Assembly: GCF_004364865.1 (NCBI RefSeq)
Contig: NZ_SOAU01000001.1
Coordinates: 2,388,001 to 2,452,000, forward strand
Direction: 5' to 3'
DNA: 64,000 bases
DNA from: Ilumatobacter fluminis
GTDB taxonomy: Bacteria; Actinomycetota; Acidimicrobiia; Acidimicrobiales; Ilumatobacteraceae
The notes under the pieces are model-generated. The model searched no databases and had not been told where the DNA came from. It saw nothing but the letters and a program-made list of their open reading frames with translations. A program made the position numbers and the translations under genes. Positions 15,394 to 33,859 of this stretch are shown in pieces (position 1 is the first letter of the stretch; each line of letters starts with the position of its first letter).

Positions 15394-16820
15394 AGAAGAT
15401 CCCCGTCACCACGGACGATCGACCCAAGGAGGAGTGCGGCGTCTTCGGCATCTCGACGCCGCACGGCGACGGTGTCGCGGAGCTGTCGTTCTTCGGCTTG
15501 TTCGCGCTCCAGCACCGCGGACAGGAAGCGGCCGGCATCGCCGTCAGCGACGGTTCGCGAGTGCGGCTGCACAAGGACGAGGGGTTGGTGTCGAACATCT
15601 TCACGCCGGAGGTGCTCGCCCCGCTGTCGGGTTATCACGCGATCGGCCACACCCGGTACTCGACCACGGGATCGAACGCCCACCGGAACATCCAGCCGTT
15701 CGTGATCGAGACCATGCACGGACCGTTGGCGGTCGCGCACAACGGCAACATCGTCAACGCCTCGGCGTTGCGTGAGGAGCTGCTCCATCGCGGGTTCGGT
15801 CTCACGGCGACGAGCGACACCGAGGTCATCGCGCTGATGCTCGCCGCGGCCGGTGGCCGCACCTGGCAGGAGCGTCTCGAGCGGACGCTGCCGGCCTGGA
15901 AGGGTGCGTTCTCGCTGGTGTTGCTCGCAGCCGACGAGGTCATCGCCGTGCGCGACCCGTGGGGCTTCCGTCCCCTGTCGGTCGGGCGGCTCCCCCACGG
16001 CGGCTGGACCGTCGCGTCGGAGACGTGCGCGCTCGCCACGCTCGGCTGCACCGACATCGACGAGGTCCGGCCCGGTGAGATCGTCACCCTCCGCGGCGCC
16101 GAGATCGACCGCATCCAGGCGCTCACCCCGTCCGGACAGCCGGCCCGCTGCACGTTCGAGTTCGTCTACTTCTCCCGCCCCGACTCGTTCTGGGACGGGC
16201 AGAACGTGCACCACGTCCGCCAACGGCTCGGCCGCGAACTCGCCATCGAGTCGGCGATCGACGCCGACGTGGTCATCCCCGTTCCCGACTCCTCGATCCC
16301 GGCGGCGATCGGCTACTCGGCCGAGTCGGGGATCCCCCACAACGACGGGCTGATCAAGAACCGCTACATCGGCCGCACCTTCATCGAGCCGACGCAAGAC
16401 ATGCGCGAGCGCGGCGTCGCCCTCAAGTTCAACGCGTTGCGGGAGAACCTCGAGGGCAAGCGAGTCGTCATGATCGACGACTCACTCGTGCGCGGCACGA
16501 CCGCCGGGCCGCTCGTCAAACTCGTCCGTGACGCCGGCGCCACCGAGGTGCACCTGCGCATCACGTGTCCGCCGATCACCCACGCCTGCCACTTCGGCGT
16601 CGACATGGGCCACGACGGCGACCTCATGGCGTCGAGGCTCAGTGTCGAGGAGATGGAGGCCCACATCGGAGCCGACTCGCTCGCCTTCCTGTCGCTCGAC
16701 GGCATGATGCGTGCCGTCGGCCAGTCCGAGGGCTACTGCAACGCCTGCTTCACCGGCGAGTACCCGATCGCCGTGCACGAAGCCCAGGCGAAGCTGTCGT
16801 TCGAGGGAGCGATCGCCTGA
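15390..16820 (+). CDS. purF: Amidophosphoribosyltransferase PurF (Fe-S type)
   Basis: A 476-residue glutamine PRPP amidotransferase that catalyses the first committed step of purine synthesis. The N-terminal nucleophile is the Cys in KEECGVFGIS (Cys16), preceded by a short propeptide that must be removed. The PRPP loop is VVMIDDSLVRGTT. Cysteines in ITCPPITHACHFG and GYCNACFTGEYP match the 4Fe-4S ligands of the Bacillus-type enzyme, so it should be oxygen sensitive. The GTG start overlaps the purC stop as GTGA. The TGA shares its A with the next ATG. Confidence 0.95.
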   Translation: MKKIPVTTDDRPKEECGVFGISTPHGDGVAELSFFGLFALQHRGQEAAGIAVSDGSRVRLHKDEGLVSNIFTPEVLAPLSGYHAIGHTRYSTTGSNAHRNIQPFVIETMHGPLAVAHNGNIVNASALREELLHRGFGLTATSDTEVIALMLAAAGGRTWQERLERTLPAWKGAFSLVLLAADEVIAVRDPWGFRPLSVGRLPHGGWTVASETCALATLGCTDIDEVRPGEIVTLRGAEIDRIQALTPSGQPARCTFEFVYFSRPDSFWDGQNVHHVRQRLGRELAIESAIDADVVIPVPDSSIPAAIGYSAESGIPHNDGLIKNRYIGRTFIEPTQDMRERGVALKFNALRENLEGKRVVMIDDSLVRGTTAGPLVKLVRDAGATEVHLRITCPPITHACHFGVDMGHDGDLMASRLSVEEMEAHIGADSLAFLSLDGMMRAVGQSEGYCNACFTGEYPIAVHEAQAKLSFEGAIA

Positions 16821-19036
16821 TGCGTGTCGTGGTGATCGGACGAGGTGGCCGCGAGCACGCGATCGCCTGGTCGTGCGAGGAGCACGGCCACACGGTGAGC
16901 CTGGCCGACGATCTCGGCGAGCTCACGGCCGACGACGTCGATCTGGTGATCCCGGGGCCCGAGGCAGCGCTGGTCGACGGCGTCGCCGACGAGTGCAGCT
17001 TCCGCAAGATCCCCTGTTTCGGCCCGACGTCGAAGCAGGCCCGTATCGAGTCGTCGAAGGGCTTCTCCCGCCATCTCGCCGACTCGCTCGGCGTACCAGG
17101 CCCGGTCTACGAGCGGTTCGAGGAGCTCGACGCCGACGGGGCGATCGCCTGGTGGCGCGGGTTCGGCAAGCCCGTCGTCGTGAAGCTCGACGGTCTCGCA
17201 GCCGGCAAGGGCGTCATCGTGCCCGCCGACGACGACGAGACCGAGGCGGCGATCCGTTCGACCGCCAAGCTCGGCCCGTTCGTGCTCGAGGAACGGATTT
17301 CCGGCCCCGAGTGCTCACTGCTCGCCCTCTGCGACGGCAACTCGGCGGTCGCCCTGCCGCTCGCGCAGGATCACAAGCGGATCGGTGAGGGCGACACCGG
17401 CCCGAACACCGGCGGCATGGGCGCCTACGCGCCGGCGCCGGTCGCCTTCGACGCGACGGAGCTGCTGGCCACCTTCGTCCAACCGATCCTCGACTACTAC
17501 GCCTCGTCGGGAACGCCGTACGTCGGCGTGCTGTACGCCGGTCTGATGCTCACCGCCGACGGGCCCCGCCTCATCGAGTACAACTGTCGCTTCGGTGACC
17601 CCGAGACCCAAGCGGTGCTGCCGCTCCTCGAGACCGATCTCGCCGAGCTTGCACTCGCCTGCACCCGACACGACGTGTCGTCGGTCCCCGTCGGCGTGCG
17701 CGACGCCGTGGCGTGCACCGTCGTGGCCGCTGCGCCCGGCTATCCGGCCTCGCCGAGCACCGGCGCAGCGATCACGTTGACCGGTTTCTCGACGACCGAC
17801 TGGGCGAACCGATCGAGTGACGACCCGAACGCAATCCTGTTCCCGGCCGGTGTGTCCGACGGTCGCACGGCCGGAGGACGGGTGCTGGCCGTGACCGGCC
17901 TGGGTACCGACCTCGCCGCCGCACGTGCCGCCGCCTACCGGGCGATGGACGGTGTCTCGTTCCCGAACATGATCGTGCGTCGCGACATCGGGTGGCGCGC
18001 ACCGGGCGCCATGCTCACCTCGTACGCGTCGACCGGTGTCGACATCGACGAGGGCAACCGGGCGGTCGAGCAGATGAAGGGCGCCGTCGAGCGCACGCTC
18101 GGCAGCGACGTGCTCCGGGGTGTCGGGTCGTTCGGTGGCGTGCTGTCGGCGAAGCGGATCCTCGAGCGAGCCGATCCGGTGCTGGTCGCCTCGACCGACG
18201 GCGTCGGGACGAAGGTCGAACTCGCCGCCCGGCTCGGCAAGGTGCGCAACATCGGCCACGACATCGTCAACCACTGCATCGACGATGTGCTCGTGCAGTC
18301 GGCGCGACCGTTCTTCTTCCTCGACTACATCGCCGCAAGCAAGCTCGACGCCGACCTCGTCGCCGACGTCGTGACCGGCATGGCCGAAGCCTGCGAGGCG
18401 TCGGGCTGTGTGCTGCTCGGCGGCGAGACGGCCGAGATGCCCGGCGTGTACGCAGCGGGTGCGTTCGACGTCGCCGGCACCCTCGTCGGCATCGCCGAGC
18501 GGAGCGAGCTGCTCCCCCGCGACGACGTGTCACCCGGCGACGTGTTGATCGGCGTGGCGTCGAGCGGGCCCCACACCAACGGCTTCTCGTTCCTGCGCAA
18601 GCTGTTCGACTGGGTGCCGATGAACGTGACGCCGCCCGGTTTCGACCAGGAGCTCGGCGACGCCCTGCTGGCACCGCACCGGTCGTATCTGGGTGTGCTC
18701 GACGGGGCCCTCGAGTCGGGCAAGGTGAAGGCGCTCGCCCACATCACCGGTGGTGGCCTCCCGGAGAACCTGCCGCGGGTGCTCCCCGACGCAGTCGACG
18801 CCGAGATCCGACTCGGTTCGTGGCCGAAGGGCCCGCTGTTCGAACTGATCGGCGAACTCGCGACCGGCGTCGACGATCACGAGCTGCACCGCATGCTCAA
18901 CATGGGTATCGGCATGGTCGTCGTGTGCGACCCCGCCGACGCCGACGCCGTCCAAGCATCGATCGACGAACCCACCTGGCAGATCGGCACCCTCGTCCGC
19001 AGCCGACCAGGCTCCCGAACCGTCCACCTGATCTAG
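16820..19036 (+). CDS. purD-purM: Fused GAR synthetase - AIR synthetase (PurD-PurM)
   Basis: One uninterrupted 738-residue frame holds two whole enzymes. Residues 1 to about 394 are PurD: MRVVVIGRGGREHAIAW, an ATP-grasp core with VVVKLDGLAAGKGVIV, NTGGMGAYAP and the usual end RRDIGWRA. PurM follows after only a few residues: LTSYASTGVDIDEGN (from 398), DGVGTKVELAAR, GCVLLGGETAEMPGVY and HITGGGLPENLPR. They catalyse steps 2 and 5 of purine synthesis. A Met at 18011 (residue 398) could allow internal initiation of free PurM, but no ribosome site precedes it. The TGATG overlap couples it to purF. Confidence 0.93.
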   Translation: MRVVVIGRGGREHAIAWSCEEHGHTVSLADDLGELTADDVDLVIPGPEAALVDGVADECSFRKIPCFGPTSKQARIESSKGFSRHLADSLGVPGPVYERFEELDADGAIAWWRGFGKPVVVKLDGLAAGKGVIVPADDDETEAAIRSTAKLGPFVLEERISGPECSLLALCDGNSAVALPLAQDHKRIGEGDTGPNTGGMGAYAPAPVAFDATELLATFVQPILDYYASSGTPYVGVLYAGLMLTADGPRLIEYNCRFGDPETQAVLPLLETDLAELALACTRHDVSSVPVGVRDAVACTVVAAAPGYPASPSTGAAITLTGFSTTDWANRSSDDPNAILFPAGVSDGRTAGGRVLAVTGLGTDLAAARAAAYRAMDGVSFPNMIVRRDIGWRAPGAMLTSYASTGVDIDEGNRAVEQMKGAVERTLGSDVLRGVGSFGGVLSAKRILERADPVLVASTDGVGTKVELAARLGKVRNIGHDIVNHCIDDVLVQSARPFFFLDYIAASKLDADLVADVVTGMAEACEASGCVLLGGETAEMPGVYAAGAFDVAGTLVGIAERSELLPRDDVSPGDVLIGVASSGPHTNGFSFLRKLFDWVPMNVTPPGFDQELGDALLAPHRSYLGVLDGALESGKVKALAHITGGGLPENLPRVLPDAVDAEIRLGSWPKGPLFELIGELATGVDDHELHRMLNMGIGMVVVCDPADADAVQASIDEPTWQIGTLVRSRPGSRTVHLI

Positions 19037-19081
19037 GGGTCGGATACGTTTCGTCGGGCCCGACGAAACGTATCCGACCCC
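19036..19081. terminator. Perfect 46-bp palindrome between convergent operons
   Basis: Two uninterrupted 23-base arms (GGGGTCGGATACGTTTCGTC..., centre GGG|CCC) start on the last base of the purD-purM stop codon and end 2 bp before the stop of the convergent sulfatase gene. It can act as a terminator hairpin for both operons. There is no loop and no U tract, so it could also be a repeat element placed at the junction. Confidence 0.75.
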
Positions 19082-19083
19082 AT

Positions 19084-21693
19084 CTACTCGACGAGGCGCA
19101 TGAGTTCTCGGGCGACCATGGGGGCGGCGTTCTGGTTCTGGCCGGTGACGAGGTTGCCGTCGACGACCCAGTGGTTGGCGAACGGGTCGCGGAAGGCGTG
19201 CTTCGACTCGAACTCCGCGCCGGCGGCACGCAGCTCGGTCTCGGGGTGCTGCGGGGTCGATGCGATGCCGAGTTCTCGAACCTGCTTGTCGGTCACCGCC
19301 GTCAGACGACGACCTGCGACCAGCGGGCTGCCGTCGGGCTTGGTGGCCTGCAGGAGGCCGAGCGGCCCGTGGCACACGCCGCCGATGGCCGCTCCCCGCT
19401 CGTCGGCGGCGGTGATCTGACGACCGAGCGCTTCGGACGTGCCGAGGTCGAACGCTGCGCCCCACCCGCCGGCCAGGTACACGATGTCGTACACGGAGAT
19501 GTCGACGTCGCCCACCGCCAGTGACTCGGCGAGCTGCCCGCGCAGCACCGGATCGGCGAGCAGTCGATCGTCGGCGGCGGTCCGGATGACCGGCTTGAGC
19601 GACTGGGGATCGACCGGGATGTCGCCTCCCCTCGGGCTCGCCACGTCGACCACCATGCCGGCGTCGCGGAACGCGTAGTACGGCACGGTCAGCTCGCTCG
19701 CGAACACGCCGGTCGGCTTGCCCAGGTCGAGTCGGCCGTGGTTCGTGGCGATGACCAGTGCCCGCTTGCCGTCGAGCGCGAACACGTCGGCGTCGGGATC
19801 GTCGGGGTGCAACCCGATCCGCTGCAACAGTCGGCGCACCGCCTTCTGCGGGGGGCGGGGCCGATGGGCCGCAGCGGCACGCCGCTGCTTGATCTGCATC
19901 TGGATGACTTCCTTCGGCGGGAGCAGCGGCACCTTGTCGATCTCGGTGATGCGACTCGTCACGTACGGCCACGGCTGGTTGCGTTCGGGGATCGAGCGGT
20001 GCCGTTCGTCCTTCATCCGGTCGACGAGCCAGCCGAACACATCGGCGGCGGCCGGGTCGTCGGCACGGTTCACGACCTCGTCGCCGTCGGCGGTGAGGTC
20101 GTAGAGCTCCCACTGGTCGGGCAGGACGTTCGTGCGGTACTGCGGGCCCCCGATGCCGTCGCTCGCCAGTTGGCGCACGCCCGGCTCGGTCCAGGTGGCC
20201 GGATCGTCGAACGTGCGCACGAGCTTCCACAGGTGGTCGTCGCCGCCGGCCGAGGCGGGGACGCGAGCGACGACGCCCTCGAAGTTCGTCGCCACGTGGG
20301 CGGCGACCTGGATCCGGAGCGGGCCGGGTGCGTCGTCGACGCGTCCGAAGGCACGGGCGATGGCGTTGGCGCCGGTGTCGCCTTCGGGCATGTTGTCGCG
20401 GGTCATCACGTACACGACGCGGTCGGCGTCGGGGTCGGCGCCGTCGACGACGGGCAGCAGGTTGCGGCCGGGCAGCGGGTGCACCTCGCTGAACGTCGAC
20501 CGCAGTTCGTCCGCCGTGGCGGCCTCGTCGATCGATGCTGCGGCGAGCAGCGTCGGGACGATGTCGAGGTGCGACGTCGGGTCGGCGATGCGACGCGCCT
20601 CGTTGGTGCCGGCGCCCACGCGGGCGATCGAGAACGGGACGCGGGTGGCCTCGTCGTAGAGCTGGAACCACTTCTGGTGCAGCCCGCCGTGCGAGCCGAG
20701 CAGGTCGCCGTGATCGGCGGTCTTCACCAGCACGGCCTCGCCGGTCGTGTGCTCGGTGACCGCTCGGCGGACCTGGTCGAGCGGGCCGTCGACTGCCGCG
20801 TGGAGCTGGTAGTACAGGTCGCGGTACTCCTGGGCGTGGCGACGGTACAGGCCGGCCACGGCGCCGGGCGGGCCGTAGCAGGAGGGGTAGGCGGCTCGGT
20901 ACGCCACGTGTGCCGCCGGCTTGGTGCGGAGGTCTTCGGTGGCGCTGGGCGCGGGCGGCACCGTGGGCACCTCGATCGAGGCCAGTTCGTCGGGCATGCC
21001 CCGGCGCATCCAGAGCGGGAACAGCACGATGTCGTGCGGGTTCACGAAGCTGGCGACGAGGAGGAACGGTCGCTGCGCGTCGGCGTCGCCGGCGCGGCGG
21101 CGGGCGTATCGGTCGTCGAGCCAGGCGACGACCCGGTCGGCGATCAGGGTGTCGCGGGCGAGACCCGAGTTGGCGAACAGACCGCCGTGCGGTTCGGGGC
21201 CGACCCATCCCGAGAAGCCGTAGGGGCCGAGCGGGTCGGCCTCGAGGTAACGCTGCACGTTCTCGTCGAGCACGTCGCCGGTGGCGGTGTTGGTCGGGAG
21301 CGGTTGCCCGTCGTCGTCGTGGAGGTCGGCGTGGCTGATGTGCCACTTGCCGTCGTAGTGGGTGTCGTAGCCGGCGGCCCGGAACCAGTTGCCGAGCGTC
21401 GGCACCTCGTGCGGGGGGAGCCAGCGCATGCGCGAGTCGTCGGCCATCTTGCCGAGTCCGTCGGTCTGGGTCACGCCGTGGAGGTCGGGATACTGGCCCG
21501 TGAAGAGGGTCGGCCGGCTCGGGACACAGGCGAGCGAGCCCGTGTAGTGGCGGTCGAACGAGACGCCGTGGTCGTCGAACCAGCGGGCGCCGGGCAGCGC
21601 GTCGCGTCGCCACGCCCGGAGTTCGTCGGTTTCGTAGGGAGGAGCGGCGCGCTCCTCGTCGGTCATCAGGATGATGATGTCGGGACGGTTCAC
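19084..21693 (-). CDS. Sulfatase fused to a C-terminal DJ-1/PfpI domain
   Basis: An 869-residue two-domain protein. Residues 1 to about 600 are an alkaline-phosphatase-fold sulfatase: RPDIIILMTDEE (metal-binding Asp), formylglycine site CVPSR (Cys56-Arg60), DGKWHISH, VKTADHGDLLGSHG. Residues about 642-869 are a DJ-1/PfpI (class I amidotransferase-like) domain with nucleophile elbow GGVCHGPLG (Cys774) and the Hsp31-like segments GKPTGVFASELTVPYYAF and TGQNQNAA. No signal peptide is seen, so both parts should be cytosolic. The GTG start overlaps the SRPBCC gene stop as GTGA. It is last in a six-gene operon. The domain calls are sure; why they are joined is unknown. Confidence 0.9.
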   Translation of the reverse strand: MNRPDIIILMTDEERAAPPYETDELRAWRRDALPGARWFDDHGVSFDRHYTGSLACVPSRPTLFTGQYPDLHGVTQTDGLGKMADDSRMRWLPPHEVPTLGNWFRAAGYDTHYDGKWHISHADLHDDDGQPLPTNTATGDVLDENVQRYLEADPLGPYGFSGWVGPEPHGGLFANSGLARDTLIADRVVAWLDDRYARRRAGDADAQRPFLLVASFVNPHDIVLFPLWMRRGMPDELASIEVPTVPPAPSATEDLRTKPAAHVAYRAAYPSCYGPPGAVAGLYRRHAQEYRDLYYQLHAAVDGPLDQVRRAVTEHTTGEAVLVKTADHGDLLGSHGGLHQKWFQLYDEATRVPFSIARVGAGTNEARRIADPTSHLDIVPTLLAAASIDEAATADELRSTFSEVHPLPGRNLLPVVDGADPDADRVVYVMTRDNMPEGDTGANAIARAFGRVDDAPGPLRIQVAAHVATNFEGVVARVPASAGGDDHLWKLVRTFDDPATWTEPGVRQLASDGIGGPQYRTNVLPDQWELYDLTADGDEVVNRADDPAAADVFGWLVDRMKDERHRSIPERNQPWPYVTSRITEIDKVPLLPPKEVIQMQIKQRRAAAAHRPRPPQKAVRRLLQRIGLHPDDPDADVFALDGKRALVIATNHGRLDLGKPTGVFASELTVPYYAFRDAGMVVDVASPRGGDIPVDPQSLKPVIRTAADDRLLADPVLRGQLAESLAVGDVDISVYDIVYLAGGWGAAFDLGTSEALGRQITAADERGAAIGGVCHGPLGLLQATKPDGSPLVAGRRLTAVTDKQVRELGIASTPQHPETELRAAGAEFESKHAFRDPFANHWVVDGNLVTGQNQNAAPMVARELMRLVE

Positions 21694-22130
21694 GCGAGGT
21701 TCTCCAGGTGGGCGGTGAGGCCGTCGAGCATCATGTCGCTCGCCTCGGCCATCTTGCGGGCGATGCCGGCGCCGATCAGCGCCTTGTCGGGACGTTTGCC
21801 GGTGTCGACGGTGGTGGCGAGCGAGACGAGGGTGCCATCGGCGGTGGGTGTGAGCGTCCACGTGTTGGTCGCTCGCTTGACGATCGGGAGGAGCCCTTCG
21901 ATGTCGTAGGCCAGTCGGTGATCGGGCTCCCAGACGGTGACGCGCTCGATGAGGGTGATCTGGCCCATCTGGACCCGGCGGGTGGTGCCGACGCCGTCGC
22001 GCTGTTCGGTGGCCAGGCTCGAGTGGTCGATGTCGTCGGCCCACAGGGCGAGTGCGTCGAAGTCGGCGAGGGTGGCCCACACGGTGGCGGGCGACGCCGG
22101 GAGGTCTCGGGTTCGGGTGATGGTCGTCAT
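21690..22130 (-). CDS. SRPBCC family protein
   Basis: A 146-residue START/Bet v 1-like protein: ITRTRDLPASPATVWATLADFDALALWADDID at the N-terminus and a helical end (IARKMAEASDMMLDGLTAHLENL) are typical of the SRPBCC polyketide-cyclase/dehydrase group. These proteins bind hydrophobic ligands in a deep cavity. It lies between the SCO6745-like gene (12 bp) and the sulfatase fusion (GTGA overlap). It may bind an operon substrate or intermediate, which is inference. Confidence 0.8.
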   Translation of the reverse strand: MTTITRTRDLPASPATVWATLADFDALALWADDIDHSSLATEQRDGVGTTRRVQMGQITLIERVTVWEPDHRLAYDIEGLLPIVKRATNTWTLTPTADGTLVSLATTVDTGKRPDKALIGAGIARKMAEASDMMLDGLTAHLENLA

Positions 22131-22142
22131 GGGTTCCTTCGT

Positions 22143-23015
22143 TCAGGTGCGTTCGTCGCGGTGGCGTCCAGCGGGCATCCACTTCTCCCCCGCCGTCGCG
22201 TCGACGCGGGCGATCAGGCGGTCGCCGACCGATTCGACGAGTTCGCAGAAGCGGACGGTCGCGTCCTCGCCGAGATGCTGCCACGCGTTGGCGGTGATGT
22301 CGTCGAGTCGGTTTTCGAGCGAGATGCGCAGGGCGATCGCCTCATCGGTGACGCGTCCGTCGACGGCGAGGCCCCGCTCCTCGAGTCGGGCGTAGGCGGC
22401 GGCAAGCGCGGCGTCGTCGGCTCCGCGGCTGCGGGGCAGCCAGTCGTCGTCGTAGTGCCGCCACGCGCCGTCGAGGATGCCCGCTTCGGTGCCGGCGATG
22501 TCTTCGGCCGTCTGGATCGCGAAGTGGGTGTCGCCGCGCCATTCGCGGATGCAGTTGACGGCGAGCCACGCCGACAGGAGCGGGTCGTCGGTGCGGCGGT
22601 GCCGGAGCTGTGCCGCGAACATCGCCCGGCCCGACAACGGCAGGGTGTCGGCCGCAGCCCACAGCGGCTCGGCGAGACCGGCCAGGTCGTCGCAGATCTC
22701 GGGCACGTGGGTGCGGAGGCCCTCGAGCACGGCCTCGTCGCGGACGCGGACGGCGTCGGCCGAGGTGCCGACCTTCAGGAGCTCGTCGATCGAGAGCCGG
22801 ATGAAGTCGGCGTGGATCGAGTAGTACGCGGCGGTGACGACGTCGGCGCCCGCGTCGACGAGCGCGCCGGCACGGGTCGTGATGTAGTAGCCGAGCCCGT
22901 TCGGGATGCCCAGGGCCGCGTAGCGCTCGATGCCGACCGGGTCCCAGAAGATCCACCCGACGAGGCGGTGCGAGGCGAACGCCGCCCTCCCCGACAGGGT
23001 GCGCCAGTCGGTCAC
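22143..23015 (-). CDS. SCO6745-like family protein
   Basis: A 290-residue, mostly helical soluble protein. The phrases HRLVGWIFWDPVGIERYAAL and GYYITTRAGAL resemble the actinobacterial family named after Streptomyces SCO6745, which has no firm function. The GTG at 23015 overlaps the dehalogenase stop as GTGA. No catalytic motif can be seen, and calling it a regulator or an enzyme would be a guess. Members often sit next to oxidoreductases or transporters in actinobacteria. Confidence 0.6.
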   Translation of the reverse strand: MTDWRTLSGRAAFASHRLVGWIFWDPVGIERYAALGIPNGLGYYITTRAGALVDAGADVVTAAYYSIHADFIRLSIDELLKVGTSADAVRVRDEAVLEGLRTHVPEICDDLAGLAEPLWAAADTLPLSGRAMFAAQLRHRRTDDPLLSAWLAVNCIREWRGDTHFAIQTAEDIAGTEAGILDGAWRHYDDDWLPRSRGADDAALAAAYARLEERGLAVDGRVTDEAIALRISLENRLDDITANAWQHLGEDATVRFCELVESVGDRLIARVDATAGEKWMPAGRHRDERT

Positions 23016-23923
23016 AGGGTGCCCGCGATGAAGTCGTTCAGGAGCTGGGCGAGTTCGGGACCACAGTCTTCCTGGAAGAAGTGGCCACCACCTTCGATGG
23101 TGCGGTGGGACTGTCCCTGGGCACCGGCGATCAGGGTCCGGAACGGCTTGTCGCCGCCGGCGGTCACTGGGTCTTGGTCGCTGAAGCAGCAGAGGAAGGG
23201 CTTGTCGAACGAACGGAGCACCTCCCACGCCTCCTTGTTCGGGCCGGCCTCGGGGTCGTCGGGCGAGGTGACGACCAGGGCCGGCCAGATGCGAGCGCCC
23301 GCCTTGTACGAGTCGTCGGGGAACGGCGCGTCGTAGGCGGCGACCTCGGCCGGGTCGAGGTCGCGGACGGAGGCGGCGTTGATGAGGAAGCCGACGTCGA
23401 ACGTCGGGGTCGTCTGGGAGAACTGCTGCCAGCGCAGGAACGCCTCGCTCGGCTGCTGGTCGCCGGTGGGCAGGCCGGTGTTGCCGACGGCGACCCGGGC
23501 GAAGCGTTCGGGCTGGGCGGCGACGAGGCGGAGGCCGATCAGGCCGCCCCAGTCCTGCCCGAAGAAGGTGCAGTCGGTGAGGTCGAGGTGGTCGAACACG
23601 AGCGCCGACATCCACGCGACGTGGCGGGCGTACGTGTAGTCGGACTGTTCCGTCGGCTTGTCGCTCCGTCCGAAGCCGACCTGGTCGGGCACGATCACGC
23701 GGTGTCCCGCGGCGACGAGGGGCGGGATCATGAAGCGGTACAGGTAGCTCCACGAGGGCTCGCCGTGGAGCAGGAGGATCGGGGCGGCGTCGGCCGGACC
23801 CTCGTCGAGGTAGTGGACGCGCAAGGTGCCGCCGTCGCCGTCGGGCACCTCCGCGTAGTGGGGTTCGAACGGGTAGTCGGGCAGGTCGGCGAAGCGGTCG
23901 TCGGGGGTGCGAAGGGTCTGCAT
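23012..23923 (-). CDS. Haloalkane dehalogenase (HLD-I type)
   Basis: A 303-residue alpha/beta hydrolase with the dehalogenase residues in place. The oxyanion/halide motif is HGEPSWSYLYR (residues 53-63). The nucleophile is Asp124 in FGQDWGG, with the halide-holding Trp125 next to it. The acid is in FSDQDPVT and the base is the His of GGGHFFQED. Replacement of the usual Ser by Asp at the nucleophile, followed by Trp, is diagnostic. The family cleaves carbon-halogen bonds in haloalkanes to alcohols. Acid after strand 7 fits subfamily I, as in DhlA and DhmA. It lies 1 bp behind the MBL gene. Confidence 0.88.
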   Translation of the reverse strand: MQTLRTPDDRFADLPDYPFEPHYAEVPDGDGGTLRVHYLDEGPADAAPILLLHGEPSWSYLYRFMIPPLVAAGHRVIVPDQVGFGRSDKPTEQSDYTYARHVAWMSALVFDHLDLTDCTFFGQDWGGLIGLRLVAAQPERFARVAVGNTGLPTGDQQPSEAFLRWQQFSQTTPTFDVGFLINAASVRDLDPAEVAAYDAPFPDDSYKAGARIWPALVVTSPDDPEAGPNKEAWEVLRSFDKPFLCCFSDQDPVTAGGDKPFRTLIAGAQGQSHRTIEGGGHFFQEDCGPELAQLLNDFIAGTL

Positions 23924-23924
23924 G

Positions 23925-24770
23925 TCAGGCTCCTGTGGGATCGACGGGTTGGATTTCGATGCGGTGGAGGTCGTCGCCGAGTTCGACGACGCCGTCGAAG
24001 TGGGTGGCGGCTCGCGACCGCCATTCGTCGACGGTGTCGGCGGTGAGGGCCGGCACGTAGTGGGTCAGCACCAGCGTGCCGACACCGGCTCGGGCGGCGG
24101 TGTCGCCGGCCTGTTCGGGTGACGAGTGGTAGTCGAGCGTGTCCTGCATCCGTTGGAGCGGGATGTTCTCGATCACGTCCTTGCGGATCACGGTGTGGAC
24201 CAGGGCGGTGGCGCCCGCGCACAGCCGATCGAGGCCGTCGCACGGCACGGTGTCGCCGGCGAGCACGACCGACGCTCCGTCGTGGTCGACCCGGAAGCCG
24301 AGGGAGGGTTCGACCGGCTTGTGGTCGGTCGGCGCACACGTGAGCGTGAAACGTGCGTCGAGGTCGATCTGGCCGTCGCCGAACTCACGGACGACGACGG
24401 GCGGCGGTTCGGTGAGATCGGCGTGGTGGGCGATGCGGTAGGCGATGTCGGGCGCCAGTGCGGCGAGCAGGTGGTCGACGACCTCGGCGGTGCCGGGCGG
24501 GCCGACGATCGTCAACGGGTTCGGCTCGAACGAGGTGACCCACCGCGTGGTGATCACGTCGTTCAGGTCGGTGATGTGGTCGCTGTGCAGGTGGGTGATC
24601 AGGAGCGCCGTGAGGTTGCCCGCACCCAAGCCGCAGGCGGCGAGGCGCATGAGGACGCCGCGCCCGGCGTCGACGAGGACGTGTTCGTCGTCGATGGTGA
24701 CGAGCGTGGCGGGTCCGGCACGGTCGGGGGCCGGGATCGGGCTGCCGGTACCGAGGAGGGTGACGATCAT
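23925..24770 (-). CDS. MBL-fold hydrolase (RNase Z / arylsulfatase-like)
   Basis: A 281-residue metallo-beta-lactamase fold protein of the RNase Z-like branch. It starts [20 protein letters not shown], has the metal motif [12 protein letters not shown], a second His/Asp set in VLAGDTVP and [12 protein letters not shown], and ends with TLVLTHYVP. The same branch includes tRNA 3' processing enzymes and type III arylsulfatases. The long flexible arm of tRNase Z is not evident, so a small-molecule ester or sulfate ester is likelier. Its ATG overlaps the arylsulfatase stop as ATGA, which supports a role in the same pathway. Confidence 0.85.
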
Positions 24771-27025
24771 TGTTGGGCCATCTGTTGTTGGGCGCGGGCG
24801 GCGTCGGTGCCGGCTGCCTCGCGTGAGACGAGTTGGATCTCGACCGAGTGGAGCAGACCCGCGAACGGGAATGGCGCCGGGTAGCGGGTGGAGACCGGCG
24901 ACCCCTGGTCGAAGCCCACCGACGCGCCGACGGAGGAGATCATCCGCATGTAGAACGGGATGTCGGACGAGCCGGCGGGCATGCCGTCGACCAGGATCTC
25001 GACCGATCCGGTCCGGCTGCCGGTGCGTCGGAATCGAGCGGTGAGGGTGACGACGCCGTCGGGCAGCGGGTCGGCGGATTCGACGACGGTGTGGTCGTCG
25101 AATGCGTTGTAGTCGACGACGAGACGATCGTCCTGCACGAACACGCTGATGCCCGAGTTCTGGGTGCCGGTCGCGTAGAGGACGCCGTCGTCACCGGACG
25201 AGCGGGTGACCGTCGCCGTCAGGTCGAAGGAGCGACCTCCGATCGACGCCGCGGCCTGGGCCGGGATGGGCGACATCGGTGGCCGGTAGACGTAGCGCCG
25301 GTCGGCCGGGTGGGGTGACCGGTCGCGGAAGCGTGCACCGAACAGTTCGACGCCGCGATCGTCGAGCGGGAGCACGCCGTGGCGGTCGGCCTCGCTCCAC
25401 CAGAGATCGATCAGGCGGGCGAGGGTGTCGGGCTCGTCGTCGGCCAGGTCGTGACACTCCGACCAGTCGTCGTCGAGTCGGTAGAGCTCCCACGGCTCGG
25501 TGTCGAAGTCGCCACCGTGTTCGTGCCGGCAGACCGCTTTCCACCAGACACCGTCGAGCTGGGCGACGAGGGCACGGCTGCCCATCATCTCGAAGTACTG
25601 CAGGGTGTTGCGGGCCGGCGCGTCGGGGTCGGTCAGCAGCTCGGCGAACGAATGGCCGGTGACCGGCAGTTGGTCGAGACCGCGCCGTGTGGCGGGCGGT
25701 GTGACCCCGATCAGGTCGTACAGCGTGGGGGCGATGTCGGCGACGTTGGCGAACTGGTGCCGCAGGGTGCCGTGCTGGTCGGGGTCGATGCCCTTCGGCC
25801 AGTGGACGATCATCGGCACGTGGACGCCGCCTTCGTGCGTGTTCTGCTTGTACCAGCGGAACGGGGTGTTGCCGCACTGGGCCCAGCCCCACGGGTAGTT
25901 CGTGTGGCTGTGCGGTCCGCCGATGTCGTCGATGCGTTCGATCGCCTCGTCGGGCGTCTCGAGGATGAAGTTGAAGAACTTCATCTCGTGCATGACGCCG
26001 TACGGTCCGCCCTCCTGGGAGGCACCGTTGTCGGCGAGGGCGACGACGATGGTGTCGTCGAGTTCGCCCATTGCGCGAAGGCCGTCGATCAGGCGACCGA
26101 TCTGGTCGTCGGTGTGGTCGAGGAAGGCGGCGAACGCCTCCTGCAGGCGGGCGGCGAGGCGCTGCTGGTTGTCGGGCAGGTCGTCCCACGCCTCGACCCC
26201 GGGATTGCGCGGCGCCAGTTGGGTGTCGGGCGGGATCAGGCCGAGCTCGAGCTGGCGCTCGTACCAGCGGCGGCGGTGGACGTCCCAGCCGTCGTCGTAG
26301 CGGCCCCGGTACTTGGCGAGGTACTCGGGCGGCGCCTGGTGCGGGGCGTGGGTCGCGCCGAAGGGGAGGTACGCAAAGAACGGGCGGTCGGGGCGGACGC
26401 CCTTCGAGTCACGGATCATGCGCAGGAGCTGGTCGACGAGGTCGACGCTCAGGTGGTAGCCGTCGTCGGGGCCGGCCGGCGGGTCGACCGGATGGTTGTC
26501 GCACACGAGGTCGGGATGGAACTGGTCGGTTTCGCCTTCGAGGAAGCCGTAGAAGCGGTCGAAGCCACGGGCGAGCGGCCAGTGATCCATCGGCCCGGCC
26601 GCCGAACACTGCTCCATCGGGGCGAGGTGCCACTTGCCGGCACAGAAGGTGCCGTATCCGGCGTCGTGGAGCACCTCGGCGACGGTGGCCGCGTGGGGCG
26701 AGATGTGGCCGAGCTGGTGCGGGAAGCCGGTGCTCCAGTTGGAGACACCGCGCATCCCGACGGCGTGTTGCGAGCGACCGGTGAGGAGTGAGGCCCGGGT
26801 CGGCGAGCACAGGGGTGTCACGTGGAAGTTGGTGAACTGGAGTCCGCCGGCCGCGAGCGCGTCGAGGTTCGGGGTGTCGATGTCGGAGCCGTAGCAGCCG
26901 AGCTGGGCGAAGCCGGTGTCGTCGAGCAGGATCACGAGCACGTTCGGTGCGTCGTCGCCCGGATGCGGCGGTTCGGTGAACGACGGCGTCGACTCGGCGA
27001 GCGTGCGTCCGATCTGGAGTGTCAT
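24767..27025 (-). CDS. Arylsulfatase (type I, formylglycine-dependent)
   Basis: A 752-residue sulfatase. Metal-binding Asp residues are in [18 protein letters not shown]; the formylglycine site is [12 protein letters not shown] with Cys73. [21 protein letters not shown] and [14 protein letters not shown] are typical of AtsA-like arylsulfatases. From about residue 570 a beta-rich region ([21 protein letters not shown]...) resembles a LamG-type C-terminal domain. No signal peptide is visible, so it is probably cytosolic. An anaerobic or FGE-type maturase must modify Cys73, and none is in the window. It is the first gene of the six-gene operon; GAGGGGGA about ten bases before the ATG is a fair ribosome site. 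Confidence 0.9.
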
Positions 27026-27070: not shown

Positions 27071-27110
27071 GCGAGTCGCACTGTCAATATCTTCTGACAT
27101 GACGACTCGC
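27071..27110. promoter_or_regulatory. Candidate TetR operator between the sulfatase operon and tetR
   Basis: Two nested inverted repeats occupy the 73-bp divergent gap and the first tetR codons: GCGAGTCG (27071-27078) with CGACTCGC (27103-27110), and inside them TGTCA (27082-27086) with TGACA (27095-27099). The -10-like TATCTT of tetR lies between. This placement would let the TetR protein control both itself and the sulfatase operon. Confidence 0.5.
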
Positions 27111-27728
27111 GATAGTGCGCAGCACGCCGCCGGTGACGAGGACGACACCGTCACCGACGGTCGGCGGCGCCGCCGCGAACTCGGACGGGTCGCTGTCGTG
27201 GATGCGGTGATCGACCTGATCCTCGCCGGGGGCCGTGCCCCCACGGCCGACCAGATCGCCGAGCGAGCGGATGTGTCGGTCGCCTCGGTGTATCGCTACT
27301 TCGAGTCGCTCGACGAGCTGCGGCGACTCGGCGTGCAGCGCTACTTCGAGCGCATCGATCACCTGATCGCGATCCCCGACATCGGTGAGGGGCCGCTCCC
27401 CCGCCGGATCGACTCGTTCGTGGCGAGCCGGCTCGAGTTCTACCGGGTCACCGAACCGATGGCCCGGATGAGCCGCCACCAGGCGCTCGACGTCGAGCAG
27501 ATGCGAGCCACCCTCGCCCGGGTCCGCGCCACCCTCGCCGACCAGGTCGCCCAACACTTCGCTCCCGAGCTCACCCCGCTGAGCAGCGCCGCCCGCAAGG
27601 ACCGTGTCGCCGTCGTCGCCGCCCTCACCTCGTTCGAAGCCTGGGACCTGCTGCAGGAACAAGGTCTCGATCGCAGCGCCGTCCGGCGTGCCTGGCGAAC
27701 GAACCTCGGCATCCTGCTCGTCAGTTGA
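27099..27728 (+). CDS. TetR family transcriptional regulator
   Basis: A 209-residue regulator with a TetR helix-turn-helix, ADQIAERADVSVASVYRYFESLDELRR, near residues 49-75, followed by a variable helical ligand-binding domain. A charged N-terminal extension of about 40 residues precedes the DNA-binding domain. ATG 27099 is chosen because TATCTT lies five bases upstream and the next upstream start would run into the divergent gene. Its position opposite the arylsulfatase operon suggests that it represses that operon and that an operon substrate or product is the inducer, which is inference. Confidence 0.88.
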   Translation: MTTRDSAQHAAGDEDDTVTDGRRRRRELGRVAVVDAVIDLILAGGRAPTADQIAERADVSVASVYRYFESLDELRRLGVQRYFERIDHLIAIPDIGEGPLPRRIDSFVASRLEFYRVTEPMARMSRHQALDVEQMRATLARVRATLADQVAQHFAPELTPLSSAARKDRVAVVAALTSFEAWDLLQEQGLDRSAVRRAWRTNLGILLVS

Positions 27729-30795: not shown

Positions 30796-31213
30796 CGCTC
30801 GCTGTCATGACGAGCAGGGAGGCGGACCGGCCCAGGTTCTGCGACGCGGGCGTCGGACAGTCAGGATCGCCCGACACCTCTCCATGCTGTTTCCAAAGCA
30901 CACGTCTCGGAACCGGTACGGCGAACGGTACGTCTGCTCGTCGCAGTGACCACTGCCCACAATGCGCCACCTAGCACCCGGGCGGCGAGACCGCTCCGCT
31001 TGACGTGCGGGCCGGTGCAGAGCGAGGTCGGCGTATTGTCCCGCGGCCTCAGCCACGCATATCGACACCTGAAGCCGCATGGTTCACCCGATCGGGATCC
31101 GGCAATCTGCTCGCCGATCAAGCGCACATATCGCGCGGGCTGTCGGTCGGGCCTATGGCGAACCGGTGCGGCTCGAGCGGTTCCTCGTGGGGTGCGAGGT
31201 CTACGCTCGCCGC
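30796..31213. other. Intergenic stretch without a supported gene
   Basis: These 418 bp between the VOC gene and the amidase hold only short open frames on both strands with no recognisable protein features. I see no strong hairpin, tRNA or repeat. The right end contains the amidase promoter, TACGCT at 31202-31207. The DNA may be eroded remains of the accessory island to the left. Confidence 0.5.
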
Positions 31214-32656
31214 ATGGGGAACATCGGGGTGTACAGCACGGCGACGGAGATGTTGGCGGCGCTCGACCGGGGTGAGGTGACGAGCGTCGACCTCGTCGAG
31301 ATGCAGCTCGAGCGGATCGACGCCGTCGACGGCGACATCAACGCGATCGCGGTGAACACGCCCGACCGGGCACGGGCAGCGGCGCAGGAGGCCGATCGTC
31401 GCCGGGCCGACGGCGACAGCGCTCCCCTCCTCGGCTTGCCGCTCACCCTGAAGGAGTCGACCCGCACGGCCGGACTCCCGCAGTCGGCCGGTATTCCGGA
31501 GTTCGCCGGCTTCGTCCCCGAGACCGACGGCCGGGTGGCCGAGCGGGTGTCGGCGGCGGGCGGGTGCCTGCTCGGGACGACGAACATCCCGTTCGCACTG
31601 AGCGACTGGCAGGCCGACAGCGCCGTGTACGGCCGCACGCTCAACCCGTGGGACACGACCCGCAGTCCGGGCGGCAGCACCGGCGGCGGGGGCGCCGCTC
31701 TGGCCGCGGGCATGACGCCCCTCGAGATCGGCAGCGACATCGGCGGCTCGATCCGGGTACCGGCCGCGTTCTGCGGTGTATACGGGCACCGCCCGACCGA
31801 AACGGCGATCCCACGATCGGGTTCGATGCCACCGCACGACCTGGAGAACCCGGCGGCGATCATGGGTGTGCAGGGACCGCTGGCGAGGTCGGCCGCCGAC
31901 CTCGAGTTGATGTTCGACGTCGTGGCCGGCCCGATCGAACTCGAGGATCGAGCGTGGCGGCTCGACGTACCGCCGTCGCGCCACGAGTCGCTCGGCGAGT
32001 TCCGGGTCGCTGTGATGCCGGAGATCCCGTTCGCGAAGCCGTCCCGAGCGATGCAAGCGTCGGTCGAGAGCCTCGCTGCGTTCGCGTCGGACGGGGGCGC
32101 TCGGGTCGCCGAGGCGATGCCGTCGTTCGACGCCGAGCAGTACTTCCACGACTATCTGACCACCCTCATGCTCATCACGACCCAGGCGATGAGCGACGAC
32201 CACCGTCACTCGGCGGCCGAGAAGATGATCGCCACGGGTGACTCGACCGAGATCGCCCGGGCGAAGGGCATGACGATGTCGGCCGTCGACTTCTTGCAGC
32301 TGCTCGATCGTCGCGAGCTCGCTCGGCGGGCGTGGGCCGAGTTCTTCGAGGAGTGGGACGTCCTGATCTGCCCGACGGCGATCGATGCGGCGTTCCCCCA
32401 CACCGACGGCAAGTTCAACGATCGAACGTTGGAGATCGACGGCGAGACGGTGCCGTACCACCACATGGTGGTGTACCCGATGTGGGCGATCTTCGCCGGC
32501 CAGCCGGCGACGGCGTTCCCGGGCGGACTCGACCCACGTGGCTTGCCGCTCGGCCTGCAGGCCATCGGCCCGTACCTGGAGGATCGCACCACGATGCGGT
32601 TCGCCGGTCTCGTCGAGGAGTGGAACGGCTTCGTCCCGCCACCGGCGTACGCCTGA
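31214..32656 (+). CDS. Amidase signature family amidase
   Basis: A 480-residue amidase signature enzyme. The catalytic Lys is in LPLTLKEST, the cis-Ser in RSPGGSTGGGGAALAAG, and the acylating Ser in SDIGGSIRVPA. These enzymes hydrolyse a wide range of carboxamides. A GatA role is unlikely since no gatB or gatC is nearby and the C-terminal half differs. The ATG at 31214 is preceded by TACGCT six bases upstream, which supports it over earlier in-frame starts. It is followed, 144 bp on, by an oxygenase gene. Confidence 0.9.
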   Translation: MGNIGVYSTATEMLAALDRGEVTSVDLVEMQLERIDAVDGDINAIAVNTPDRARAAAQEADRRRADGDSAPLLGLPLTLKESTRTAGLPQSAGIPEFAGFVPETDGRVAERVSAAGGCLLGTTNIPFALSDWQADSAVYGRTLNPWDTTRSPGGSTGGGGAALAAGMTPLEIGSDIGGSIRVPAAFCGVYGHRPTETAIPRSGSMPPHDLENPAAIMGVQGPLARSAADLELMFDVVAGPIELEDRAWRLDVPPSRHESLGEFRVAVMPEIPFAKPSRAMQASVESLAAFASDGGARVAEAMPSFDAEQYFHDYLTTLMLITTQAMSDDHRHSAAEKMIATGDSTEIARAKGMTMSAVDFLQLLDRRELARRAWAEFFEEWDVLICPTAIDAAFPHTDGKFNDRTLEIDGETVPYHHMVVYPMWAIFAGQPATAFPGGLDPRGLPLGLQAIGPYLEDRTTMRFAGLVEEWNGFVPPPAYA

Positions 32657-32800
32657 GCCGTGTGAACCGTTCGTGAACGGCGGGCCGCTCCCCTTCCATC
32701 GCAACCGACAGTTCCGTATGGTCGGGTCACACATCAGGGAGTAGAAGCGGTCAGGGCTCGACGGCCCCGGGCATTGCTCCGTCCGACGAAAGGACCTCCC

Positions 32801-33784
32801 GTGCCCACTTCCCCCGAACGCTCCGTCGAACTCGACCTGGAGTCGACGATCGGCAGCATCGGCGTCGACGCCGACCGGACGATCCCCGTGATCAGCCTTG
32901 CCGACATGGACCGGCGGCGAGCCGAGATCACCGACGAGCTGTGGGCCGCAGCCCGCGACGTCGGCTTCTTCCAGCTGGCCAACCACGGCATCGACACGGC
33001 GCTGGTCGATGCGACGTTCGCCGCAGCAGAGCGGTTCTTCGACCTCGACGATGACGTGAAGGCCGAGGTGCCGTGGCGACGCGAGTTGAACGCCGGGTGG
33101 GAGTCGAGGTCGCAGGTGCGGCCCTCGACGAGAGTGGCCGATCAGAAAGAGACGTACCAGGTGACGGTGCCGCACATGTCGGGCCTGTGGCCCGCCGACG
33201 AGACGGTGCCCGGCTTCCGCACGACACTGCTCGAGATGGAGCGGCGGTGCTGGCGCATCGCGATGGACGTCCTCTCGTGCTTCGCCGATCGGTTGGGCTT
33301 CGCGCCCGACTTCTTCACCGTGGCGCACGAGCCCACCGGCGACGGCTACCAGAGCACGCTGCGCCTGCTGCGCTACTTCCCGATGTCGGCCGACGATTTC
33401 GAGGAAGGACAGTGGAGGGCAGGCGCCCACACCGACTACAACTGCCTGACCCTCCTGTTCCAGCGGGAGGGGCAGGCAGGGCTCCAGGTGTGCCCCGGCA
33501 CCGACGCGGCGACCGGTCGGTGGACCAGTGTCACGCCCGACGAGCGTCTGATCACGTGCAACATCGGCGACATGTTGAAGCGGTGGAGCGACGACCGCGT
33601 CTCGTCGACGCTGCACCGCGTGCGTGGGCCGAAGCCCGGGGAGCCGGTCGTGTCGCGCCACAGCGTCGCCTTCTTCGCCCAGGCGAACAAGCCGGTGATG
33701 ATCATCCCGCCGGGCGGGTCGTACGAGCCGACGAGTGCCGGCGACTTCCTCCAGCAACGGATCGACGCCAACTTCGTCCGGTGA
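32801..33784 (+). CDS. 2-oxoglutarate/Fe(II)-dependent oxygenase (isopenicillin N synthase family)
   Basis: A 327-residue oxygenase. The N-terminal domain has TIPVISLADMD and GFFQLANHGID; the iron site is His210-x-Asp212 (in AGAHTDYNCLTLL) with His272 (in STLHRVRG). The following Arg-x-Ser (RHSVAFF) would bind the 2-oxoglutarate carboxylate. A clear ribosome site, GAAAGGA at 32788-32794, sits six bases before the GTG at 32801 and decides the start. Members hydroxylate or desaturate small molecules, including amino acids and thymine. The substrate is not visible. A strong hairpin follows. Confidence 0.9.
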   Translation: MPTSPERSVELDLESTIGSIGVDADRTIPVISLADMDRRRAEITDELWAAARDVGFFQLANHGIDTALVDATFAAAERFFDLDDDVKAEVPWRRELNAGWESRSQVRPSTRVADQKETYQVTVPHMSGLWPADETVPGFRTTLLEMERRCWRIAMDVLSCFADRLGFAPDFFTVAHEPTGDGYQSTLRLLRYFPMSADDFEEGQWRAGAHTDYNCLTLLFQREGQAGLQVCPGTDAATGRWTSVTPDERLITCNIGDMLKRWSDDRVSSTLHRVRGPKPGEPVVSRHSVAFFAQANKPVMIIPPGGSYEPTSAGDFLQQRIDANFVR

Positions 33785-33789
33785 CGCAA

Positions 33790-33824
33790 CACGCCGCCCC
33801 GAGCCGGTTGCTCGGGGCGGCGTG
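33790..33824. terminator. Hairpin terminator between the oxygenase and katG
   Basis: CACGCCGCCCCGAGC and GCTCGGGGCGGCGTG form a perfect 15-bp stem around CGGTT, just past the oxygenase stop and 36 bp before the convergent katG stop. It can serve both genes; no U tract follows. Confidence 0.7.
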
Positions 33825-33859
33825 CTCGCCAGTGCTCAGGCGAGACCGTTCTGCTGGGT

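Follow-up and report, generated by a model that had tools for sequence, protein, structure and literature searches.

A predicted formylglycine-dependent sulfatase fused to a DJ-1/PfpI domain recurs across many actinobacteria and may serve an organosulfate pathway

What many DJ-1 proteins act on in nature is disputed, and for a DJ-1 domain that is hard-wired to one sulfatase the question narrows to the products of that sulfatase, with the partner pointing to the substrate of the DJ-1 subfamily. In yeast Hsp31 the predicted site comprises E30, D57, H108, H139, and E170 (PMC1782040, available part), and the available part of a second study reports that Glu30 and Cys138 are essential for its glyoxalase III activity, the His being less so, and that Cys138-His139-Glu170 resembles a protease triad without known function (PMC4021431). 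In SAV0551, exchange of the equivalent Glu, Cys, His, or acid costs the protein its glyoxalase III activity, with marginal activity left in D221A, the mutant in the acid of the triad, but chaperone activity is retained in those same mutants (PMC5691139, in the portion of the text available). Large-subunit catalases place an enzyme and then an Hsp31-type domain on one chain, as does the protein described here, and the accessible text on them credits this C-terminal, Hsp31-derived domain with stability and chaperone activity (PMC9137513).

We analyzed a 64,000-nucleotide stretch of the Ilumatobacter fluminis genome (the window, to which all positions refer). The sulfatase/DJ-1 fusion gene (19084..21693, minus strand) is a single 869-residue frame with a GTG start at 21693 and a stop ending at 19084; the open frame extends 5' of the chosen GTG, which overlaps the stop of the upstream SRPBCC gene by 4 nucleotides (GTGA). 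A PF00884 match spans residues 5-387 (E 2e-36, 126 bits against a cut-off of 25) and a PF01965 match residues 665-866 (E 2e-13, 50.8 bits against 26.6). On the same strand, the sulfatase half (19969..21693) takes up residues 1-575, or about 5-575, with the formylglycine (FGly) site at C56-R60, the linker (19774..19968) residues 576-640, with low model confidence at 578-609, and the Hsp31-type DJ-1 half (19087..19773) residues 641-869, including E667, W744, C774, H775, Q804, and V805. The initial annotation had described a sulfatase and a DJ-1/PfpI domain in one uninterrupted 869-residue frame, and this reading holds, both Pfam matches lying above their cut-offs, as do the complete formylglycine sulfatase with a CVPSR site (C56 to R60) and the complete DJ-1/PfpI domain with an intact nucleophile (GGVCHGPLG, with C774 and H775, the Cys being invariant) that it had claimed. 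It did not mention the run of genes, the SRPBCC gene as a constant partner, or the changed sites (His to Trp744, acid to Val805) described below. The source genome, one contig of 4,775,416 bases that is 99.97% complete, holds 8 PF00884 and 5 PF01965 matches, and only in the fusion do the two share a frame.

A scan of genome contigs gave 357 pattern stretches and from these 337 relatives, the best 80 of which were kept by score. Both halves lie in one stop-free frame in 80 of these 80 best of 337 relatives (6 are cut by contig ends), a figure that is not a frequency because ranking by score favors full-length, that is fused, matches. The record titles of the best 80 of 337 loci name actinobacteria or just a "bacterium," and the fusion carriers without a metagenome label include Nocardioides sp. 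Root1257, Streptomyces sp. CB02009, and IMCC26207. The fusion of one locus titled as a Bifidobacterium breve MAG (L087) falls very near that of IMCC26207 in the tree, and the L087 title is probably wrong. In two evenly drawn genome sets (E <= 1e-60), the fusion was found in 10 of 149 from the class and in 6 of 296 from the phylum, 1 of the latter 6 being split over contigs. The initial annotation had looked to recurrence in related genomes for support, and this was borne out in 16 of 61 such genomes, own genome included, with 14 full-length as one match, one (G041) full-length in a 947-residue frame, and one (G003) cut by a contig end. What it had named as refutation, homologues always encoded as two genes and an error at the junction here, is not what is seen, since one-frame fusions recur. 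An assembly join or frameshift artefact is ruled out because the same junction occurs in many assemblies, namely in all 80 best of the 337 relatives and in the 16 related genomes. A plasmid-borne fusion was likewise rejected: matches occur on 490 plasmid records, but no record reaches 80% of the query at a single site, and the 40 of these 490 matches that were listed are each confined to one half. The fusion is thus a genuine two-domain protein that recurs across many actinobacteria, a conserved architecture in a large, little-studied group from water and soil.

The residues of both halves were compared in an alignment (A1) of 69 proteins, one from the window and 68 from the 80 kept loci, leaving out the 6 contig-cut loci and L042, L044, L104, L106, L111, and L113, assumed to be near duplicates. 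Of the 12 positions that, by analogy with the family, we take to form the sulfatase site, 11 (D12, C56, P58, S59, R60, K116, H118, H220, D327, H328, and K341) are invariant in 69/69 fused proteins and are also kept in all 13 sulfatase-only rows, with position E13 being Glu in 50 and Gln in 19 of the 69. The role of K341 is assigned from sequence, because it falls within a low-confidence stretch of the model (332-341). The C-x-P-x-R formylglycine site is intact throughout (C56, P58, S59, and R60 in 69/69), and the own genome holds three matches above cut-off to the FGly machinery family PF03781. The protein falls far below the choline sulfatase equivalog TIGR03417 (88 bits against a cut-off of 433.45). 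An AlphaFold2 model computed on A1 (pLDDT 85.1, pTM 0.67) is weak at 332-341, 578-609, and 833-835, and the placing of the halves relative to each other is uncertain at this pTM. The modeled sulfatase half matches 3b5q (Z 29.6, rmsd 3.0, 410 residues), 5g2u, and choline sulfatases at Z of about 29 to 29.6, and the DJ-1 half matches 4p5p (Z 32.6, rmsd 1.5, 222 residues), 1u9c (Z 32.1, rmsd 1.7, 217 residues), 1qvw, and 4lru at Z 30.7 to 32.6, these listed matches being taken up by two families and saying nothing about other families. By profile and fold, the N-terminal half is an FGly-dependent S1 sulfatase, with hydrolysis of a sulfate ester as its predicted reaction.

The DJ-1 half belongs with the Hsp31-type DJ-1/PfpI proteins by its PF01965 score, its fold, its Cys-His pair, and the Glu upstream, and E667, C774, and H775 are invariant in all 69 fused proteins of A1, as is N840 in the fused DJ-1 halves. 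Three further positions set the fused proteins apart from the six unfused relatives compared: W744 (69/69) is His in 4 and Leu in 2 of the 6, Q804 (69/69) is Glu in 6/6, and position 805, Val in 68 and Ile in 1 of the 69, is also Glu in 6/6. By alignment, W744 would correspond to H108 of yeast Hsp31 and V805 to E170. The acid of the triad expected of an Hsp31-type glyoxalase III is therefore missing at a position that was matched by sequence alignment, and the NCBIfam models for HchA (NF003168, 27.3 bits against 365) and for the DJ-1 family glyoxalase III (TIGR01383, 22.7 bits against 131.25) both remain under cut-off. The DJ-1 half looks catalytic, yet not like a canonical glyoxalase III, because the Hsp31 His is Trp and the triad acid is Val or Ile in every one of the 69 proteins. 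Catalysis is also not assured, given the missing acid and the marginal activity of the SAV0551 D221A mutant (in the accessible part of PMC5691139), and the change may weaken or alter the chemistry of the domain.

Both halves are conserved to a similar degree. Mean identity over all pairs of the 69 proteins is 69.9% in the sulfatase core and 70.6% in the DJ-1 half, against 59.2% in the C-terminal part of the sulfatase and 47.3% in the linker, which varies in both sequence and length. Median dN/dS among close pairs (Nei-Gojobori) is 0.12 in the sulfatase, from 26 pairs, and 0.10 in the DJ-1 half, where dS was usable in 24 pairs. These low ratios point to purifying selection on each half, and their likeness, together with that of the identities, indicates that the DJ-1 half is preserved as carefully as the sulfatase.

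The fusion is the last gene of a tightly packed six-gene run, ARS2-MBL-HLD-HTH67-SRPBCC-fusion, with a divergent TetR gene opposite. Overlaps of 4 nucleotides occur at ARS2/MBL, HLD/HTH67, and SRPBCC/fusion, and the gaps elsewhere are 1 and 12 bp. Neighbors were counted at 43 fused loci, those among 88 distinct ones whose flanks reach 5 kb or more on either side, with one query per family at E <= 1e-6 and flanks of unequal length; loci were merged only where 900 bases are identical (2 pairs), so near-identical rows remain. The SRPBCC (Polyketide_cyc2, Pfam) protein (21690..22130, minus strand) is present at 43 of 43 loci and lies directly upstream in 85/85 distinct fused loci for which 400 bp or more of upstream sequence is available; its matches to solved structures are weak (best E 0.0014), and a match to an NCBIfam toxin family is far under cut-off. 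Further along the minus strand are an HTH_67 family protein (22143..23015, Pfam, relatives at 12 of the 43 loci), a haloalkane dehalogenase-like alpha/beta hydrolase (HLD, 23012..23923, 22 loci) with strong matches to solved structures (411 bits to 6f9o and 392 to 4mj3), and an RNase Z-like metallo-beta-lactamase hydrolase (MBL, 23925..24770, 25 loci). The assignment of the MBL protein is ambiguous: it passes the cut-off of one ribonuclease Z model of NCBIfam and stays below those of the other models listed, and its best-scoring solved structure is 8gyg, named "Arysulfatase." The run begins with ARS2 (24767..27025, minus strand, 25 loci), a second FGly-type sulfatase whose best-scoring solved structures are the arylsulfatases 4cxk and 1hdh (about 300 bits) and whose start, set at MTLQIG, possibly lies further upstream; where found, it has the highest median identity (73%, one query per family) of the neighbor families compared. 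The TetR-type regulator (27099..27728, plus strand, start chosen here) diverges from the run and has relatives at 30 loci. DUF1330 proteins occur at 20 of the 43, a family without Pfam match at 10, and GST-like proteins at 6, and 3 of the 43 have none of the eight neighbor families besides SRPBCC. Because gene order shifts between loci while content persists, we read the neighbors as a probable functional set.

None of the six proteins of the run has a strongly hydrophobic N-terminal stretch, the highest 10-residue Kyte-Doolittle mean being 1.75, a measure that is not a signal-peptide predictor, and from these N-termini we infer that they act inside the cell. Between 18900 and 28000, a promoter scan found no sigma-70-like site, and terminator-like sites number 3 against 2.3 in shuffled sequence. 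Four other loci (L039, L040, L042, and L065) have a dioxygenase-like gene near the fusion, the L042 copy belonging to the TauD/TfdA family (Pfam), some members of which are alkylsulfatases. At 31079-36058 of the window, and not counted in the run, are an amidase and a 2OG-Fe(II) oxygenase (Pfam) and, by eye, a KatG-like catalase-peroxidase. On the other side, a 42-bp perfect palindrome (19038..19079, unstranded) sits between the end of a purine-gene frame on the plus strand and that of the fusion gene on the minus strand. Its 18-base arm has 62 copies in the genome (32 forward and 30 reverse, against 0 for a reversed-letter control), arranged as 28 inverted pairs, whose starts lie 24 or 45-50 nucleotides apart, and 6 single arms; placed between convergent genes, the palindrome could be a REP-like repeat or a shared terminator. 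The purine frame (16565-19036) reads by eye as PurD-like and then PurM-like sequence in one open frame, possibly a natural fusion or a read-through of two purine genes.

Close relatives of the sulfatase without the DJ-1 domain, 58-69% identical over about residues 2-584, were found in G205, G154, G133, and G098, four genomes that all belong to one distant genus; G025, G002, and G008 each have one as a second copy, and in G001 it is the sole copy. No DJ-1 match at E <= 1 was present in the 12.5-15 kb around eight such loci (L127-L134), nor in the same span around three distant ones (L136-L138), and the picture of two adjacent genes that later fused finds no adjacent DJ-1 gene at these 11 loci. 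The SRPBCC neighbor is kept at L127-L130, in the distant genus, and was found neither at L131-L134, within the family, nor at L136-L138. In nine genomes searched with the DJ-1 half, relatives of at least 70% identity exist only as fusions (G000, G025, G008, and G002); G133 and G154 hold ordinary DJ-1 relatives at 35-37% identity, and G205, G098, and G001 have none anywhere in the genome at E <= 1e-5. As the sulfatase-only genes of G205 and G098 are linked to SRPBCC in genomes that have no DJ-1 relative at this threshold, the DJ-1 step is dispensable for some users, and as the domain is missing from some sister sulfatases, it need not be a requirement for desulfation. On a quick tree with long outgroup branches, whose root, set by distant rows, is insecure, it takes 4 changes to account for the 13 sulfatase-only rows, 3 of them forced by well-supported branches. 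Loss of the DJ-1 domain in some lineages is likelier than its repeated gain, because L127-L130 group with the fused L062 (support 98). Three unfused DJ-1 relatives examined on plasmids share a gene run with an NADH:flavin oxidoreductase in 3/3 and a VOC protein in 2/3; all are sphingomonad plasmids, so these loci are not independent. In one of them, from Sphingobium yanoikuyae (L152, 2495-4838), the unfused Hsp31-type gene stands between an SRPBCC gene and the NADH:flavin oxidoreductase gene.

We propose, with about an even chance of being right, that the fusion is a bifunctional enzyme for small organosulfates in a TetR-flanked and probably cytosolic set, whose DJ-1 half acts on a carbonyl in a way that differs from Hsp31. 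Cys56 would be converted to formylglycine, allowing the N-terminal half to cleave the sulfate ester group of a small, hydrophobic compound that the SRPBCC protein may bind or deliver. Glu667, Cys774, and His775 of the tethered DJ-1 half could then attack a carbonyl carbon by thiohemiacetal-type chemistry, the target being either the desulfated product or a companion metabolite of the same pathway. Its substrate or reaction would differ from that of canonical Hsp31 glyoxalase III because Val805 and Trp744 stand where the triad acid and the usual His would be. The initial annotation had offered two ideas for this half, and of these the handling of a carbonyl stays the best reading, with the invariant Glu/Cys/His and the plasmid relatives near NADH:flavin oxidoreductase and VOC genes in its favor and, against it, the missing triad acid, the sister sulfatases that lack the domain, and the varying wider neighborhood of the fusion. 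The other idea, that the domain guards the formylglycine protein, has lost ground: among the PF00884 matches of the genome the remaining seven lack a PF01965 match in frame, the domain was probably lost from a sister clade of this sulfatase, and, in the part of PMC5691139 available, SAV0551 chaperone activity is independent of the residues that are invariant here.

A stabilizing or chaperone appendage is a rather doubtful explanation. The large-subunit catalases are a real precedent with the same order, an enzyme followed by a C-terminal Hsp31-type domain (PMC9137513, available text), but the Glu, Cys, and His that are invariant in 69/69 fused proteins speak against this role, while being compatible with it, and among 21 related genomes the 4 that have Catalase_C (PF18011) carry no Cys-His dipeptide in the last 260 residues of these proteins, as read from the protein ends, the alignment itself being poor. 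Because the three residues are kept here and are not needed for chaperone activity in SAV0551 (PMC5691139, as far as accessible), we favor catalysis over a mere stabilizer. If it is catalytic, the DJ-1 half could be an ordinary glyoxalase III or deglycase that shields the cell or the fusion enzyme from methylglyoxal, and the Candida glyoxalase III (4lru) among its solved relatives, as well as the retention of the Glu and Cys essential for this activity (PMC4021431, available part), would fit. This is unlikely, however, since the acid is Val in 68 and Ile in 1, and the GGHG His is Trp in 69/69, whereas the unfused relatives keep the acid in 6/6 and the His in 4/6; the NCBIfam glyoxalase III models are far under cut-off, and such a general function needs no single sulfatase partner. 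Least probable of all is a joining for co-expression only, with two unrelated activities under the same stress or catabolic regulon: the variable linker and the absence of the domain, without an adjacent replacement, from several sister lineages agree with it, but the close DJ-1 relatives (at least 70% identity) occur only fused in the nine genomes searched.

The proposed bifunctional enzyme could also be part of something broader, an undescribed pathway of actinobacteria for small organosulfates that are halogenated or reactive in some other way, which would combine the sulfatases, the dehalogenase, an SRPBCC carrier, and a new type of DJ-1 with a Trp/Val site; we regard this as quite improbable. 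The two FGly sulfatases and the MBL hydrolase would strip sulfates and the haloalkane dehalogenase halogens, the SRPBCC carrier would hold a hydrophobic intermediate, and the DJ-1 half, as a new catalytic type, would act on the carbonyl exposed by desulfation. Chlorosulfolipid-like compounds would be one example of its substrates. A search of the literature by title found nothing on chlorosulfolipid degradation, and the dehalogenase is present at only 22 of the 43 loci. More generally, the constant SRPBCC neighbor and the sulfatase run suggest an organosulfate pathway absent from the literature found.

In the literature searched, mostly outside subscription journals and judged by the titles and opening abstract lines of the papers listed, we found no description of a sulfatase paired with a DJ-1/PfpI domain, and the accessible text of the SulfAtlas paper does not contain "DJ-1" (PMC5066984); protein databases could well contain the architecture. 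Each of the two domain families is known, as are fusions of each to other enzymes, and it is the DJ-1 activity that is possibly new. With the FGly-dependent S1 sulfatases (choline sulfatase 6fny/7ptj, BT1596 5g2t, and 3b5q) the N-terminal half shares the fold, the FGly, Lys, and His residues, and the Asp-His pair, but identity is only about 16-25%, and the fusion adds the DJ-1 domain. The S1_25 sulfatase module of rhamnosidase FA22250 (6hr5, by its entry title) is also joined to a second catalytic module, which there is a rhamnosidase; the partner here is a DJ-1 domain, and the protein shows no evident export signal. In the large-subunit catalases the enzyme that precedes the Hsp31-type domain is a different one, and the four catalase proteins of the relatives are without a Cys-His dipeptide in their last 260 residues. 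With the Hsp31-type proteins 1u9c (APC35852), 4p5p (REP24), and 4lru (glyoxalase III), the C-terminal half has in common the fold of the whole domain and the Glu, Cys, and His, whereas it differs from them in having Trp744 in place of the His, Val805 in place of the acid, and the invariant Q804 and N840.
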